DNA of 64,000 bases from Ktedonobacterales bacterium (lineage in GTDB: Bacteria; Chloroflexota; Ktedonobacteria; Ktedonobacterales; Ktedonobacteraceae), in assembly GCA_027451525.1 (NCBI GenBank), contig DAIDJF010000003.1, positions 1 to 64,000 of the forward strand, given 5' to 3'. The notes under the pieces are model-generated. The model had not been told where the DNA came from and did not search any database. It saw only the letters and a list, made by a program, of their open reading frames with translations. Shown one piece after another: positions 11,557 to 61,858 of the stretch; the stretch's first letter is position 1; each line of letters opens with the position of its first letter. Made by a program: the position numbers and the translations under genes.

Positions 11557-11762
11557 TCTTATGGATGTCTGAAATGCACGTATAGGATAGCCGAGATGCC
11601 CCATTTGACAACAAAGGGTTCATCATCAACATTTCGACCGACCAGTATCCTTTGTGCGCCTCTCTTTAGTGATATTACGTAGAAGGTGTCGGTAGAGTAG
11701 TACTTTTCTGACCTGAATTTTTGTTGCGTAAGGACTAAAGATTTTTGAAAGGACGTAAGCAC

Positions 11763-12194
11763 ATGGAAAATATGATGGCTCCTCCACCTCGTCGTCCGTT
11801 GGGCATCACGATTATTTCCATTTTGCTGATTATCGAGGGTGTTGTTGAACTCATCGGCGCTTTTGCTGCTTTTTCACTAGCGGCTGTTGTGCGTCATCAC
11901 GGCGTGATCGGCTCAGCACTTGGCGTGGCAGGAATCGTGATCGGTGTTATCGCGCTGGCACTTGCCATCGCAACACTCGTGCTAGCCTGGGGTTTGTGGA
12001 CGCTCAAAAGATGGGCTTATTGGGCCACTATTTTTATCCAAGTATTGATCATTGTCGAGCGTATTCTCTCGCTCTTGCGCACACATGCGACGGCAGGCAT
12101 GGTAGTCGCCAGTTTAATTATTCCAGTCATTGTTCTCATCTACCTCTTCGTGGACCGCGCTGTGCGTAATGCCTTTCATCTCAAAGCCACCTGA
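11763..12194 (+). CDS. Four-helix membrane protein
   Basis: ATG 11763 follows AAAGGA; a TTG at 11745 in frame is less likely. The 143-aa protein starts MENMMAPPPRRPLGITIISI. It has four hydrophobic segments (about residues 14-38, 52-80, 86-103 and 111-131) with LAWGLWTLKRWAYWATIFIQV between the second and third. This layout resembles DUF2127-like small membrane proteins, but the match is not firm. It is divergent from ftsH. Confidence 0.6.
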   Translation: MENMMAPPPRRPLGITIISILLIIEGVVELIGAFAAFSLAAVVRHHGVIGSALGVAGIVIGVIALALAIATLVLAWGLWTLKRWAYWATIFIQVLIIVERILSLLRTHATAGMVVASLIIPVIVLIYLFVDRAVRNAFHLKAT

Positions 12195-12331: not shown

Positions 12332-13087
12332 ATGTTTTCAGGACGTATCACCGCCAGACACGCGCTCACCTGTGCAGTGCTGTGTATAGCAAGCATACTT
12401 TTTATGACAGGTTGCTCTCTGCCGTGGAAACATACCACGGCGGCGGCAAGCATTAACCCGAACGCACCAAAACCAACCGCGCAACAATTATTGACCAATC
12501 TACAAAAGAACTTTCGCAACGTTAGCTCATTCCATGTCACGATGGCAGAGCAGAATCCTGGCCCGGTTACACCCGACCAGATACAGATTCTCAATGCTGC
12601 AGGCGATGTTGTTATGCCTGATAAAGTGAAGGCACTGGCGACCGTTGTCCTCTCCGGTCAATCTGTACAGGTAAGCCTCATCAGCGTTGGTGATAACCAG
12701 TTTATTACCGACCCCATCACAGGGCAATGGCGCGTCATCAAGGGCGTCCTCGACCCGCGTACCTTGACCAACCCCGACACTGGCATTATCTCACTGGTCA
12801 GCAAACTACAAGGCGTCAGTGCGCCAGTCGCAGATATCGTGAATAATGTCCCTTGTTGGCGCATCACAGGCCAGCTTGACGCCAAATATCTCGCTTTCTT
12901 TACGGGTGGCGGCGTACCCGCTGGCACAATGCTCCAGACCAGCGCATGTGTTGGGCAGGTCGATATGTTGCCCTATCAGGTGAGTGTCACGGGCATAGCC
13001 GCTGTTGGTGATACAGCACAGACAGTGCGCACATTTGATCTTTCTAACTATAACGAAACGATCTCTATCACAGCTCCACAGATATAG
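12332..13087 (+). CDS. LppX/LprG-family lipoprotein
   Basis: The 251-aa protein starts behind GGGAGG. It has a signal peptide and a lipobox (LFMTGCS, lipidated Cys about residue 28), so it is an anchored lipoprotein. The mature part shows the LppX_LprAFG pattern: TAQQLLTNLQKNFRNVSSFHVTM at its start, long beta-rich stretches with DPITGQWRVI, and SACVGQVDMLPYQVSVTG near the end. In mycobacteria this fold has a hydrophobic cavity that carries lipids, and LprG works with the MFS exporter P55. Here too a large MFS transporter follows. Lipid carriage is inferred from family and context. Confidence 0.7.
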   Translation: MFSGRITARHALTCAVLCIASILFMTGCSLPWKHTTAAASINPNAPKPTAQQLLTNLQKNFRNVSSFHVTMAEQNPGPVTPDQIQILNAAGDVVMPDKVKALATVVLSGQSVQVSLISVGDNQFITDPITGQWRVIKGVLDPRTLTNPDTGIISLVSKLQGVSAPVADIVNNVPCWRITGQLDAKYLAFFTGGGVPAGTMLQTSACVGQVDMLPYQVSVTGIAAVGDTAQTVRTFDLSNYNETISITAPQI

Positions 13088-13137
13088 GAGCGTGAGTATG
13101 GTGTTCAAAAAAATAACGTGGTAATAGACAAAGAAGC

Positions 13138-13214
13138 GTGCTTTATCGCGTCAGCCTTCCTCTCCAATCGGCCTCACAGGCGGATATATACACGAGCAGG
13201 ACGCGATAAAGCAC
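13138..13214. repeat. Perfect 15-bp inverted repeat around a 47-bp spacer
   Basis: GTGCTTTATCGCGTC at 13138-13152 is exactly complementary to 13200-13214. It lies between the lipoprotein and the MFS gene. No run of T follows directly, so it is a weak terminator candidate. It could be a hairpin that tunes expression of the exporter relative to the lipoprotein, or a small repeat element. Confidence 0.65.
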
Positions 13215-13271
13215 AGACCTACGCATTGTGTTTTTGTATGTTTTATATTGTTATAAATGAACGGGGGGACG

Positions 13272-15929
13272 ATGTACACCCTAGAAGATGATCAGGAGAC
13301 ATCCTCGCGTTTGCAAAAACGAGATTTCACGATTGCCGAACAGCCGGGGACATTCGGCGATGACTCCGACAGCGTGTCCGAGGATGCCACACAAGTTGTC
13401 TCTCTCCCTGAAGAGCCAACACCTGCCGCCCAGGAAGATGCTGTTTCCGCGCCAGCACATCATACAGGGCGTTTTTCAACCCAGCAGATTACCAGTTCGT
13501 TCAAACGCTTGACGACCCCCACGCCAGGGAAGACCCATAGCGCGGCAGAGCGGCGGATCGCGCTAGCAGCACTCACTGTAGCCTGCATTGGCGTCTTTTT
13601 TACCGCCCTTGACCAGACGGTTGTCGTCACGGCGTTACCGCAAATTATCCTGGACTTACATATTCCAATCACGCAACTCGATCATGCCGCGTGGATTATC
13701 AGTGCCTATCTGCTCGGTTTTATTGTCGTAATGCCGTTGATGGGGCGCGTCTCCGATATCTATGGTCGTCGCCGCATCTTTCTACTCTGTCTAACCATCT
13801 TTGGGGTTGGCTCAATCCTCTGCGGTCTGGCTCCCATCTTTGGGCAAATGCTTGATTTGAGTTTTTTAAGTATATTCAATATTGATACCTCTTCGCCCGG
13901 CCTGATCTTACTGATTGCCGCGCGTCTCTTACAGGCGGTGGGCGGTGGTGCAGTGGTTCCTGTCGCGATGGCAATTGCCAGTGATTTCTATGGTCAGGAG
14001 CGGCGCGGTCTGGCTCTAGGGATCATTGGAGCCGTCACAGAGGCAGGTGGCGTGCTGGGTCCACTCTATGGGGCCGTGATTGTGCAGCATCTCGGCTGGC
14101 AATATATCTTCTATCTCAACGCGCCCATCGTGCTGGCCCTCATGATTGCCGCGTGGTTCCTGGTTCCCAAAGGCAACCATCTGCGTGAGAAAATTGACTG
14201 GCTGGGAACCATCTTGCTCGCACTGGCATTGACCTGCTTGAGTCTGGGTTTGGCGCAGCAAGGAACGTCACTTAGCCCAAGCACAGTATCGGGACACGCT
14301 CCACAGAATAACCCACTGTCGCTTGCACTCGCCGCCATCTTTCTTATCGCCTTTGTGCTGGTCGAACTTAAAATACGCTGGCCCGTTGTCGAAGTCTCGC
14401 TCTTCAAACGCTTGCCATTTAGCGCGGCCGCGCTGGTAAGCCTGCTGGTCGGCTCAGCCCTCATGATCGCGATGGCGGACATTCCAATTTTCGTTGACAC
14501 GGTATTGCAATCCTCGGTCCTGGATAGCGGTCTCGCGCTGTTACGCATGACAGCAATGATTCCGTTAGGTGCGCTGCTTGGCGGCTGGCTGTGTAGCCGC
14601 ATCTCCTGTCGCTTTACGGGTATGCTTGGACTAATCTTTACCGCAACAGGCTTCTTCTTGATGAGCCGCTGGCCTGTGAATTTACAATGGCAGCAACTCA
14701 CAATCAGCACCCTGACAGCAGGCTTTGGCTTTGGCCTTGTCATCGCCCCTATCGGCACGACGGCGATCAATGCCGTGCGTCCGAAACAGGCAGGTATGGG
14801 ATCTGCTGTCGTCACAGCCCTGCGCATGGTCGGCATGATGCTCGGCCTCGCCGCGCTGACCTCGTGGGCATTGGCCTACTTCAAACAACTGGTTTCTACC
14901 TATCCTTCGTTACCGCTGACGGCAACAGCCGCGCAATTCGGACAGTGGTCAAAGGGCTATGCCACGCATATCATCCAGTCCGCGCACACTGTCTATGATT
15001 CTGTTTTCTTCATCTCAATGATCCTCTGCTTGATCGCATTGCTGCCCGCGTTTTTCTTGTGGGGCAACAAAGCACCAGAAGTTGAGCCTGTGATGATTGA
15101 GCCGGAACTACACGAGGCTCTTACAAGCGGTGTTGTCGATATCGCGGACCTGCCTACCGTACCGGTACCCCCCGATGCAATCACACCGCTTGTGGAAGAA
15201 CCGGGCATACCTAAAAAACGCCGTTCCAAACGTCGTCTACTCATTGTCGCGCTGATCGCCCTGATCCTGCTGCTGATCGGCGGCGGGGTGCTGGCAGCTT
15301 TCATCCTTTCACCTGACACAACCACAGATCCTGCGCTCCCCACACCAACGAGCGTTGCGCGTAGCGTTCCTACGAGTGCGCCTCTGGCTACACCTATCGC
15401 AGGTCCACGCATGATCCAACTGGCCCTGGACAAAGGGGCACTGACATCGATCTTTGTCTCGCAGTTGAACCTGCAATCGGGCACCCTGACCGATCTCGCG
15501 GTCACACCAACGCCCAATGATGGCCTGGTTTTGAGTCTCAACCTGCATATTGACGCTAATGGCATCCATCGCGTAATGCCGATTGAAATGGATGGCATCA
15601 TCAGCATTGACAGTCAGCAAAACTTGCACCTCCAGGTCGTACATCTCAAGCGCGACGGACAAGATGCAGGCTCTACGGCTGCGACACAAATGCAAAACGC
15701 ACTAAACCAGTTACTGCAAAGTGCGGTTATGCCAGCCCTACACGGTCAACTCAAAGGCGTAAAACTGATCTCAGCGCATACCAGCTCAACGCTTGCTTGT
15801 GGTAAGGGGGCCGAAATGCTGGTCCTTCTCGTCCAGGCTCCGCCCATTCAAGGAATCGCGGCCCAGCCCACACCCGTACCGTTCTGTATCAATGGCGCGC
15901 AAGACTTGAATAAGCTGCTTTCACAATAA
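13272..15929 (+). CDS. DHA2-type MFS exporter with C-terminal extracytoplasmic domain
   Basis: ATG 13272 follows GGGGGGA closely; an ATG at 13257 has no ribosome site. The 885-aa protein has about 90 disordered residues, then a 14-helix drug:H+ antiporter-2 module: IALAALTVACIGVFFTALDQTVVVTALPQI (helix 1, split here as in EmrB/QacA), GRVSDIYGRRRIFLL (motif A), LLQAVGGGAVVPVAMAIASD and AVTEAGGVLGPLYGAVI (motif C). After a Pro/Glu linker comes an extra helix (about 653-678). A beta-rich domain of about 190 residues follows, related in pattern to the next gene's product. This extra domain is not part of ordinary EmrB proteins. Substrate unknown; lipid or glycolipid export is inferred from the LppX neighbour. 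Confidence 0.8.
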   Translation: MYTLEDDQETSSRLQKRDFTIAEQPGTFGDDSDSVSEDATQVVSLPEEPTPAAQEDAVSAPAHHTGRFSTQQITSSFKRLTTPTPGKTHSAAERRIALAALTVACIGVFFTALDQTVVVTALPQIILDLHIPITQLDHAAWIISAYLLGFIVVMPLMGRVSDIYGRRRIFLLCLTIFGVGSILCGLAPIFGQMLDLSFLSIFNIDTSSPGLILLIAARLLQAVGGGAVVPVAMAIASDFYGQERRGLALGIIGAVTEAGGVLGPLYGAVIVQHLGWQYIFYLNAPIVLALMIAAWFLVPKGNHLREKIDWLGTILLALALTCLSLGLAQQGTSLSPSTVSGHAPQNNPLSLALAAIFLIAFVLVELKIRWPVVEVSLFKRLPFSAAALVSLLVGSALMIAMADIPIFVDTVLQSSVLDSGLALLRMTAMIPLGALLGGWLCSRISCRFTGMLGLIFTATGFFLMSRWPVNLQWQQLTISTLTAGFGFGLVIAPIGTTAINAVRPKQAGMGSAVVTALRMVGMMLGLAALTSWALAYFKQLVSTYPSLPLTATAAQFGQWSKGYATHIIQSAHTVYDSVFFISMILCLIALLPAFFLWGNKAPEVEPVMIEPELHEALTSGVVDIADLPTVPVPPDAITPLVEEPGIPKKRRSKRRLLIVALIALILLLIGGGVLAAFILSPDTTTDPALPTPTSVARSVPTSAPLATPIAGPRMIQLALDKGALTSIFVSQLNLQSGTLTDLAVTPTPNDGLVLSLNLHIDANGIHRVMPIEMDGIISIDSQQNLHLQVVHLKRDGQDAGSTAATQMQNALNQLLQSAVMPALHGQLKGVKLISAHTSSTLACGKGAEMLVLLVQAPPIQGIAAQPTPVPFCINGAQDLNKLLSQ

Positions 15930-15944
15930 ATGAGGAACGTGACA

Positions 15945-17066
15945 ATGAAAAAGAAACGTCTTTTACAATCCGGTCTGGGCGTAGTGTTGGCCTTGCTGCT
16001 CTTCGCCCTCGCGGTCACACCAGCTCGTGCCGCTAACAGGAATATTCACATACACAAGGCTACGAGCGGTACAACATCGATCAATGCAACAATCTATCTG
16101 GCAACGGCGACTTTGCAGCCGATTTTCCAGCAGAATATCGATCAGGCTGTACCAGGAGCAGTCAATAGCACATTGAGCCAGATTTTGAATACGCTGCCCG
16201 CCAGTGATCGCGGTTGGGCAGGACAGATGGCAAGCGCGCTGCTTCAACCATCCGCGCAACTGACGAGTCTATCAGCACAACAGAATGGACTGGCCGCCTC
16301 GCTCAATCTCAGTCTCTACCCTGGTGACCCACAACCAATTAACGCCAGTATGAACGTGACATTTAGCGTGTTGGATAGCACCACCGTGCAGGTCAGCGTC
16401 CAGCCAGCCAGCGGTAGTCCGGCCCTGGTCAGCGGCCCCATTACCACCTTCACAATGCCCATCGGACAACTCAATAGTATCAGTACAACTCCTAGCTGTG
16501 GTAATGCTGCTCTTGCCGCCAACCTGCAATTCCCTATCGCGCTAGGCACGGCAACAGGACAGGTTCAATTTGCGCATTCTATGCAACATCAGGTGACACG
16601 GGGCAAGTTGCAGCCACAAGCAACGGCAGGAGCAACAGACTCGTATATCGAAATTCCCGCGACCTCGCTCGCCTCGCTGGGCAGCAGCATTAGTTCATTG
16701 CCCATCAGCAGCAATATGAGTGCCCAGAACATTCAGATTTCAGTGCAGGGCAGCAACCTGATTATTAACTCGGACATCATGCTCGGCTCGTTCCAACTTG
16801 GTACAGCGACGACCACAGTCACGCCCACAGCAACCAATGGTAGTCTGGCGGTCAACGTGGTCAGTACGACGTTAACCGTCTTCCAGATTTTCACCTTCCC
16901 CTACGATACCTATAATCAGCAGATCCAGCAGACACTCAACACGGAACTAAATGGGGCACTGACGGGGAAGTTCACGGTGACAAAAGCAGCGATTGGCCCC
17001 GATAGCAACCTGCCTTGCGCAGCTAGCGACAGCCTCGTATTGACGGGCACAACCAGCTTGTTCTAA
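15945..17066 (+). CDS. Secreted beta-rich protein of the exporter operon
   Basis: ATG 15945 is chosen because TGAGGA precedes it and the protein then begins with a classic signal peptide (MKKKRLLQSGLGVVLALLLF, cleavage after ARA). An upstream ATG at 15930 directly after the MFS stop is possible. The mature part has about 345 residues and appears to hold two similar halves. Each ends in a pattern QQIQQTLNTELNGALTGK-like followed by a Cys near the C-terminus. The second half resembles the C-terminal domain of the MFS protein (amphipathic strands, then QNALNQLLQ). A DUF2993/LmeA-like lipid-binding fold is a possibility, not shown. Cotranscribed with the exporter, 15 bases apart. Confidence 0.6.
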   Translation: MKKKRLLQSGLGVVLALLLFALAVTPARAANRNIHIHKATSGTTSINATIYLATATLQPIFQQNIDQAVPGAVNSTLSQILNTLPASDRGWAGQMASALLQPSAQLTSLSAQQNGLAASLNLSLYPGDPQPINASMNVTFSVLDSTTVQVSVQPASGSPALVSGPITTFTMPIGQLNSISTTPSCGNAALAANLQFPIALGTATGQVQFAHSMQHQVTRGKLQPQATAGATDSYIEIPATSLASLGSSISSLPISSNMSAQNIQISVQGSNLIINSDIMLGSFQLGTATTTVTPTATNGSLAVNVVSTTLTVFQIFTFPYDTYNQQIQQTLNTELNGALTGKFTVTKAAIGPDSNLPCAASDSLVLTGTTSLF

Positions 17067-17214: not shown

Positions 17215-18534
17215 TCAATCGGCTCCTACAGGCACTTCGTCTTTGACATTGACCACGGCAGACACAACGGCGCGCGGACGTTTGCGCCAGCGATTCGATA
17301 GCTCTATCCAGGGTAGCTCTACCCATTTATACATCCCATAGGAGAAGGGGATGACGATAAAGAGAGCACATAGCCACAGAAAAATGTAGAGAATGCCGCC
17401 ACGCCAACCTGCCGCGTGTAAGGGGCGCAGATATTCTTTGAAATCCTCCAGCACATAGAGATGCCACATATAAAGACTATAGGAAATATAGCCGATCCAA
17501 CGTAGCGGCAACCACTCAAACGGACGCTTCAGCCTATACTCGCCAAAGAGAAGCGCGATCACACACAGGCCAAAGCCGAACGAGAAGCATAGCTCACCCC
17601 ATTGCGTAAAGGCTTGTGAGATCGGGTTAAGGAAGCGCAGACCTGTGTGAAACCAGTTATTGAAATGCCATAATGCCGTAAAGAAGAGCAGCAGAATACC
17701 ACTGCCCCAGATCCACCAGCTTGCGCGGCGCAGGTATTGACTTAACAGATGATCTTTCGCAGCCTGCCGTGAATAAATATACAGCGCGGCAATCAACATG
17801 CCAACAGCAAAATCTTCAAGAAATTTGCCGTTTGTGCCATAGGTAAAAAAGAGCACCCAGTTCAGTACGGGACGCGATACGAGCACGCTTTGTGTCGGAT
17901 TGTTGGTGAAATAGAGACCCACGTAGCGTGTTCCCACGCCCCATGCCATCATGATAAACAAACAGGCCGTTAGCATAATCACGCGCTGCTTTAACTTTCC
18001 ATGTCTCACCACCCAACTAAAGGCCAGGGCCAACCACGGCAAGAGCAGGTAAAATTGCCACTCAACCGCGAGTGTCCAGAATGGACCATTGAGGTGTTGA
18101 TAGGTCGCGGGTGTCGAATCCATAAACAGCGTGAGAAAAAGTACAAGCTGTTTGAAATGATCGGGCTGCAAATAATCTGGCTCAAAGAGGAGAATCATAA
18201 TAAAAAGAGCGACATAATAGCCGGGCAGGATACGCAAGGCACGCCGTAGATAAAACTGGCGCATTGAAGGCCAGTCCTTACTGAAGAGCAGCGACTTCGC
18301 GTACGGCATGAAGAGCAGAAAACCCGACAACACGAAAAAGAGTGTTACACCAGCCCCTCCTCCAAGCATGAGTGCGCTAGCAAGCGAACCGACTGAGAAG
18401 GTCCAGAGTTTCAAGTCCAGGTGAGCAATCAGATTAAGATGAAATGATATGACGGCCAGACAAGCAACAGCGCGTACCCCGTCCAGTACGGCTATCGAGT
18501 TCTTCTGTGTATCTTGTTTGAATGCTGAAAACAC
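17215..18534 (-). CDS. Acyltransferase family 3 (OafA/YrhL-type) membrane protein
   Basis: The 439-aa protein has the family opening LDGVRAVACLAVISFHLN, with the conserved His at about 32. It continues with GVTLFFVLSGFLLFMPY, YLRRALRILPGYYVALF and WTLAVEWQFYLLLPWLAL. About ten hydrophobic helices follow. These enzymes O-acylate sugars, lipids or antibiotics at the membrane. No SGNH esterase domain is fused. There are no glycan genes beside it, so the acceptor is unknown; the lipid-export operon converges on it. Confidence 0.85.
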   Translation of the reverse strand: MFSAFKQDTQKNSIAVLDGVRAVACLAVISFHLNLIAHLDLKLWTFSVGSLASALMLGGGAGVTLFFVLSGFLLFMPYAKSLLFSKDWPSMRQFYLRRALRILPGYYVALFIMILLFEPDYLQPDHFKQLVLFLTLFMDSTPATYQHLNGPFWTLAVEWQFYLLLPWLALAFSWVVRHGKLKQRVIMLTACLFIMMAWGVGTRYVGLYFTNNPTQSVLVSRPVLNWVLFFTYGTNGKFLEDFAVGMLIAALYIYSRQAAKDHLLSQYLRRASWWIWGSGILLLFFTALWHFNNWFHTGLRFLNPISQAFTQWGELCFSFGFGLCVIALLFGEYRLKRPFEWLPLRWIGYISYSLYMWHLYVLEDFKEYLRPLHAAGWRGGILYIFLWLCALFIVIPFSYGMYKWVELPWIELSNRWRKRPRAVVSAVVNVKDEVPVGAD

Positions 18535-61483: not shown

Positions 61484-61511
61484 TATTCATACAAGTGAAT
61501 AATCATTTGTT

Positions 61512-61660
61512 TGTCTTCGGGGTAGGGTGAAGCATAGCAGCGCGGAAATATCAAGCGTAATATGCTAATTCCCAATCGGCGGTACAGCCCGCGAGCCTCT
61601 TACGGGGCATGATCTGGGGAAGTTCCAGAGCCGACGGTATAGTCCGGATGGGAGAAGACA
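61512..61660 (+). ncRNA. FMN riboswitch (RFN element)
   Basis: The conserved parts are in order: TCGGGGTAGGGTGAA, CAATCGGCGGTA, AGCCCGCGAGCC, CTGGGGAAGTTCCAG, AGCCGACGGTATAGTCCGGATGG (in pieces) and GGAGAAGA. The closing stem TGTCTTC (61512-61518) pairs with GAAGACA (61654-61660). It senses FMN and shuts off riboflavin synthesis genes. A hairpin CTCTAAGC/GCTTAGAG (61674-61681 with 61695-61702) followed by a T-rich stretch may be the expression platform. Confidence 0.95.
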
Positions 61661-61858
61661 AGCATATCGGCTTCTCTAAGCAACGCTATGCATGGCTTAG
61701 AGTCTCTTTGCTCACGGCTACAAACTGCATGTGTTCATGCTAGTCTGCTTTGCATTGAGCAAAGGAACTCCGCGCCTTCTCTTCCCCTACACATTACCCC
61801 GTTTGTCAGTCTATCACCAGAGATGTCATCACACATCACACACGGGGTATTACGCAAG

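Follow-up and report, generated by a model that had tools for sequence, protein, structure and literature searches.

In Mycobacterium the LprG-P55 system seals the mycolate outer membrane, and Chloroflexota lack such a membrane; what, then, might an operon of this type, enlarged by further extracytoplasmic domains, be doing in a soil Chloroflexota bacterium of the family Ktedonobacteraceae? The operon lies at positions 12332-17066 of the window, by which we mean the whole 64,000-nucleotide stretch of DNA analyzed, and comprises three genes on the plus strand, with all reading frames open (Table 1). The gene set recognized in the initial annotation, namely an LppX/LprG lipoprotein, a DHA2 transporter and a secreted protein, is indeed present. 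Gene 3 begins at the base directly after the stop codon of gene 2, and given that this arrangement is present in 16 other genomes, it is neither a chance occurrence nor a frameshift artefact. The spacer between genes 1 and 2 is 169 nt long and contains an inverted repeat (folding z -2.1), which was not seen on reading the spacer sequence of a sister genome and was rejected as a conserved hairpin. A gene for a four-helix membrane protein upstream (11745-12194) was likewise rejected as a part of the system, having no homologue at the loci of relatives. Elsewhere, the window contains an FMN riboswitch (61509-61663; RF00050, 96 bits).

Table 1. Coordinates of the operon and its features in the window
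Feature	Position	Strand	Basis
Gene 1, LprG-type lipoprotein, 251 aa	12332..13087	+	PF07161; lipobox MTGC, Cys at aa 28
15-nt perfect inverted repeat (GTGCTTTATCGCGTC), 47-nt loop, in lprG-transporter spacer	13138..13214	.	
Gene 2, Rv1410/P55-type MFS transporter with predicted extracytoplasmic TULIP-like domain, 890 aa	13257..15929	+	
14-helix DHA2 core with Rv1410-length TM11-TM12 loop	13557..15074	+	8pnl alignment, hydropathy
Glu262, ion-lock E157 of MHAS2168 (E147 of Rv1410)	14040..14042	+	alignment; PMC10576003
Arg523, ion-lock R426 of MHAS2168 (R417 of Rv1410)	14823..14825	+	alignment; PMC10576003
15th transmembrane helix, aa 661-679, after basic cluster KKRRSKRR	15237..15293	+	hydropathy
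C-terminal TULIP-like domain (predicted), aa 720-890	15414..15926	+	AF2, Foldseek
Gene 3, secreted two-domain protein, 378 aa	15930..17066	+	signal peptide, CETP/BPI-like model
First beta-rich domain of secreted protein, aa 46-206	16065..16547	+	AF2 model
Second beta-rich domain of secreted protein, aa 234-378	16629..17063	+	AF2 model

Profile searches with the product of gene 1 recovered the LppX_LprAFG family (PF07161), with the match spanning positions 2-190 of 192 (E 1.3e-14; 54.9 bits against a cut-off of 24). Its lipobox cysteine (C28) is invariant across 19 sequences from Chloroflexota relatives, and a profile of these relatives retrieves LprG (3mh9, E 4.8e-20) as the best match, followed by LprF (1.6e-16) and LppX (2e-6). 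At the level of sequence, gene 1 is accordingly assigned to the LppX/LprG family of lipoproteins, with LprG as its closest member. Gene 2 codes for an MFS transporter of the DHA2/EmrB type, whose profile matches include the EmrB, LfrA and QacA models, and its hydropathy profile displays about 95 N-terminal cytoplasmic residues followed by 14 core helices (aa 101-601). The best solved relative is 8pnl, the Rv1410 homologue of M. hassiacum (E 1e-64). Transporters of the Rv1410 type are distinguished by an ion lock between a glutamate of TM5 and an arginine of TM11, which is absent in 46 other MFS transporters, by a TM1 Asp-TM4 Arg pair, and by TM11 and TM12 helices that reach into the periplasm (PMC10576003). 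Examination of the alignment reveals both lock residues in the window transporter, along with Asp119 in TM1 and Arg223 in TM4, while its TM11-TM12 segment differs from that of 8pnl by a single 4-residue gap (48 versus 52 residues between equivalent positions). The window transporter, and nearly all of 34 transporters from Chloroflexota, retain the ion lock, the TM1 aspartate, the TM4 arginine and the motif A aspartate; both lock residues occur in every Ktedonobacterales sequence aligned, and the sole exception among the 34 is a distant sequence from another class (G057), in which threonine replaces the glutamate. Together with LprG being the best match of the lipoprotein, these observations identify gene 2 as an Rv1410 (P55)-type transporter and bear out the LprG-P55 relationship first proposed for the locus, which is a specific one.

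Gene 2 extends well beyond this core. Given that a 15th helix follows a basic cluster, the last ~200 residues should, going by hydropathy, lie outside, in agreement with the extra helix and outside C-terminal domain originally claimed for this 14-helix transporter. A linker of about 40 residues (aa 680-719) joins the helix to the terminal domain. Gene 3 in turn encodes a protein with a Sec signal peptide ending in A-R-A-A and neither lipobox nor anchor. Searches with the fused domain and the secreted protein yielded no match to any Pfam family and no sequence match in the PDB; LmeA, which had been named as a fold to compare with the beta-rich domains, found no backing either, as no Pfam match to DUF2993 was obtained up to E 10 for 17 and 16 members of the two families. 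We then turned to AlphaFold2 models built on the family alignments, which are shallow (16-17 rows). With the model of the fused domain (pLDDT 76), the top 11 Foldseek matches in the PDB were all BPIFA1/SPLUNC1 (best 6baq, E 8.7e-4; the remainder up to 7e-3), with low TM-scores of 0.24-0.27, and below these came YceB, LBP and BPI. The model of the secreted protein (pLDDT 75) best matched the two-domain CETP structure 2obd (E 6.6e-5, probability 1.00, 515 columns), with a low TM-score of 0.36; the second match was 8bgm (OrfX3, E 2.2e-3), and those below it were noise.

BPIFA1/SPLUNC1, YceB, LBP, BPI, CETP and OrfX3 are all members of the TULIP superfamily. YceB and P47/OrfX2 represent bacterial TULIPs, and TULIPs have also been noted in monoderms (PMC6791001). 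In light of these matches, a TULIP fold is probable for both the fused and the secreted domains, a grade that reflects the low TM-scores (about 0.24-0.36), and the carrier fold proposed earlier for them is moderately supported by the models. The further suggestion that the secreted protein carries a domain similar to the fused one holds at the level of structure, both models being TULIP-like and the same order of elements (helix-4 strands-helix-strands) recurring in the fused domain and in the second half of the gene 3 product; it does not hold for sequence, as hhalign comparison of the three beta-rich domains showed no similarity (probability about 0.2%). Strand alternation, considered as a proxy for a cavity, was dropped, since alternation or amphipathicity was clear in one of the three beta-rich domains. 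Divergent homologues of gene 3 were also recovered: one genome (G002; L041, 8275-9239) carries a tandem of two short homologues of its second half, both leaderless, beside an enoyl-CoA hydratase-like gene, and another (G014; L040, 117-557) has one, in both cases away from any transporter. In G009 (L039) the secreted-protein gene is kept after cysS, and the transporter is gone save for a 27-aa remnant of the fused domain.

Lipoproteins of the PF07161 family were detected in 153 of 400 Chloroflexota genomes. In most inspected loci with a continuing contig, an Rv1410-like transporter gene directly follows lprG, and such pairs were seen in Ktedonobacterales and in two genomes of other classes; the plain lprG-transporter pair is widespread across the phylum. 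Within the sets searched, both the fused domain and its secreted partner were recovered solely from Ktedonobacteraceae, with the domain being present in Ktedonobacter racemifer, K. robiniae, Dictyobacter aurantiacus, D. kobayashii, D. vulcani and several MAGs. The fused form posited by the initial annotation as a Chloroflexota version thus exists, but it is confined, as searched, to one family, the plain pair being the common form in the phylum. The fused transporters constitute a single clade (UFboot 100) within Ktedonobacteraceae, adjoining unfused transporters of the same family (support 93), a topology which indicates that the fusion arose once. Some genomes (G003, G010, G024) possess both types. 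In two loci (L034 of G026 and L035 of G003) the fused transporter is broken into two or three frames, reflecting either sequencing error or decay.

In unfused lprG-transporter pairs of Ktedonobacteraceae, the transporter is followed by a gene for a membrane-anchored protein with a weak match to the toastrack domain DUF4097 (L072, L073, L075-L079, L085, L093, L095, L097 and L099). In several of these loci its start codon overlaps the transporter stop codon, and several also contain an FHA-ABC transporter after it. This DUF4097-like protein is a different extracytoplasmic partner for the same type of pump, which implies that outside partners change. Cluster C3, the third gene of unfused operons, was considered as the source of the fused domain and rejected, as its proteins have a toastrack-like beta region and not a TULIP.

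In every one of the 17 genomes encoding both, the fused transporter and the secreted protein are direct neighbors, a pairing that spans about ten genera and two different genomic sites. LprG lies directly upstream of this pair in four of the 17 (G000, G001, G003 and G010). In four more (G005, G008, G011 and G019) the fused transporter runs into a contig end; in three of these (G005, G008 and G019) a closely related type of LprG adjoins a fragment of a transporter where another contig ends, as would be expected if LprG were upstream there as well. The remaining nine, from four genomes of the genus Ktedonobacter, four of Dictyobacter and one g12 genome, have no LprG upstream, and most of these pairs sit after tatD-cysS. 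LprG is thus gone from the operon in Ktedonobacter, Dictyobacter and g12, and the expectation that the three genes are kept together stands for the transporter and the secreted protein but fails for LprG. As almost all unfused outgroups have LprG, its absence is most simply explained as a loss that occurred once or twice, the internal branching of the fused clade being weak (support 69). A complete absence of LprG-like proteins from Ktedonobacter was entertained and rejected: a sensitive LprG profile recovered remote homologues of about 315 aa elsewhere in most of the genomes with LprG-less operons (E 1e-8 to 1e-15). The genes examined for these (G010, G017 and G004) have no transporter beside them, and the same remote LppX/LprG-like family in L096, L100, L101 and other loci, from genera whose operon has lost LprG, has no MFS neighbor in the loci examined.

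We regard it as likely that the operon encodes a proton-driven lipid exporter of the Rv1410 (P55) type, to whose LprG shuttle TULIP carrier domains have been added; across the family, the best reading is that such carriers were added to, and in places replace, LprG. We infer lipid binding, the direction of transport, the order of hand-over and the identity of the cargo. In mycobacteria, Rv1410 pulls TAG from the membrane core and hands it over via TM11/TM12 to LprG (Remm et al., PMC10576003). In the mechanism proposed here, the cavity of the window transporter would take up a largely apolar lipid from the cytoplasmic membrane, and the lipid would be lifted through formation of the Glu262-Arg523 ion lock and presented outside by the extended TM11/TM12. 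LprG, the TULIP domain tethered by TM15, or both might then take it at the exit, and the soluble double-TULIP protein could ferry it across the thick wall, with the cell surface, the filament sheath or the spore coat as the end point. Such a relay, from the pump through LprG and/or the tethered TULIP domain to the soluble TULIP and the surface, is the most economical reading of the operon. As to the cargo, TAG, named in the initial annotation, is not favored because no WS/DGAT gene (PF03007) was found in 31 genomes, in a search whose positive control gave no signal. A gene for an acyltransferase-3 protein (17215-18534, minus strand; PF01757, E 1.4e-28) is convergent with the operon, and homologues neighbor the secreted-protein gene in four loci (the window, L023, L027 and L030), which is at most a hint at an acylated surface glycan or glycolipid.

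Among the alternatives, the one that fares best accepts a true Rv1410-type lipid exporter and regards the fused and secreted domains as structural or wall-binding beta domains, serving in pump positioning or as chaperones, instead of carriers. It would accommodate the low TM-scores, the clear strand amphipathicity of just one domain in three, and the other extracytoplasmic partner of the unfused transporters in the same family. However, lipid-transfer TULIPs rank first in Foldseek for both models, and it is precisely in operons with the fused and secreted domains that LprG can be missing, so we consider this account unlikely.

Next in rank, and improbable in our estimate, is a DHA2 drug or metabolite efflux pump, its outside domains serving to capture or steer a small amphipathic compound such as an antibiotic, siderophore or signal. 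DHA2 is mainly a drug-efflux subfamily, from which EmrB, LfrA and QacA models match gene 2; the original description of P55 itself was that of a drug pump (PMC8829022, PMC4055363), and the window genome encodes many DHA2 pumps. Yet gene 2 matches 8pnl far better than EfpA (E 1.7e-26, the next-best solved match, about 38 orders of magnitude behind), QacA (6.5e-20) or EmrB, and it conserves the lipid-type ion lock, neither residue of which aligns in EfpA. The glutamate is missing from all five full-length alignable DHA2 paralogues of the window genome; as several of these carry an arginine at the second position and none the glutamate, it is the Glu/Arg pair that discriminates. A lipid also better fits the pairing with LprG and TULIP-like domains. 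That the secreted protein is merely a chance downstream neighbor, unrelated to transport, might be argued from its retention beside the 27-aa remnant in G009 and from the short leaderless homologues away from any transporter in G002 and G014, but adjacency in 17 of 17 genomes with both, over about ten genera and two genomic sites, makes this very improbable.

The exporter favored here resembles the mycobacterial LprG-Rv1410 operon in placing an LppX/LprG-family lipoprotein beside a 14-helix DHA2 transporter, and Rv1410 itself in its conserved ion-lock pair, TM1 aspartate, TM4 arginine and TM11-TM12 extension. It differs in the 15th helix and predicted TULIP-like outside domain of the transporter, a shorter TM9-TM10 segment, a third gene for a secreted two-domain protein, the lack of a mycolate outer membrane, and the loss of LprG from the operon in several genera. 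What links it to TULIP lipid-transfer proteins is the fold predicted for its fused domain and for its secreted protein, the latter modeled with the two-domain layout of the blood lipid-transfer proteins CETP and BPI; unlike the known TULIPs (CETP, BPI, LBP, BPIFA1/SPLUNC1, YceB, DUF2140, DUF2993/LmeA and DUF4403), these domains match no Pfam TULIP family by sequence, and one of them forms part of an MFS transporter. LppX-MmpL7 and other mycobacterial LppX-carrier exporters also pair a lipid pump of the inner membrane with a carrier of the LppX fold, whereas here the pump is of the MFS and not the RND type, and a second carrier fold has been added. The drug pumps QacA, EfpA and EmrB belong to the same 14-helix subfamily, and QacA also has a TM11-TM12 element, but their sequence match is much weaker and EfpA lacks the lock. 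Searches of the open-access literature yielded neither an account of LprG/P55 from Chloroflexota nor one of an MFS-TULIP fusion. The transporter and LprG families are known, and what is new is the predicted MFS-TULIP fusion, the CETP-like secreted partner and the loss of LprG from the operon.

The route taken beyond LprG by lipids that Rv1410 extracts is an open question in mycobacteria (PMC10576003). Here, probable downstream carriers have been added to the same pump, one of them tethered at its exit, and the genera without an operon LprG are natural variants for asking what LprG does; cultured hosts for such tests exist in Ktedonobacter racemifer and Dictyobacter. There is about an even chance that Ktedonobacteraceae have exchanged the LprG shuttle for carriers of the TULIP type, one built into the pump and the other secreted as a CETP-like double TULIP. 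If so, the family would possess a proton-driven MFS-TULIP machine for lipid export, operating in bacteria that have a wall but no mycolates, and the window would represent a preserved intermediate state with both types of carrier. More generally, these observations point to lipid export as a widespread and largely unexamined function in Chloroflexota, a phylum whose envelopes are poorly understood.
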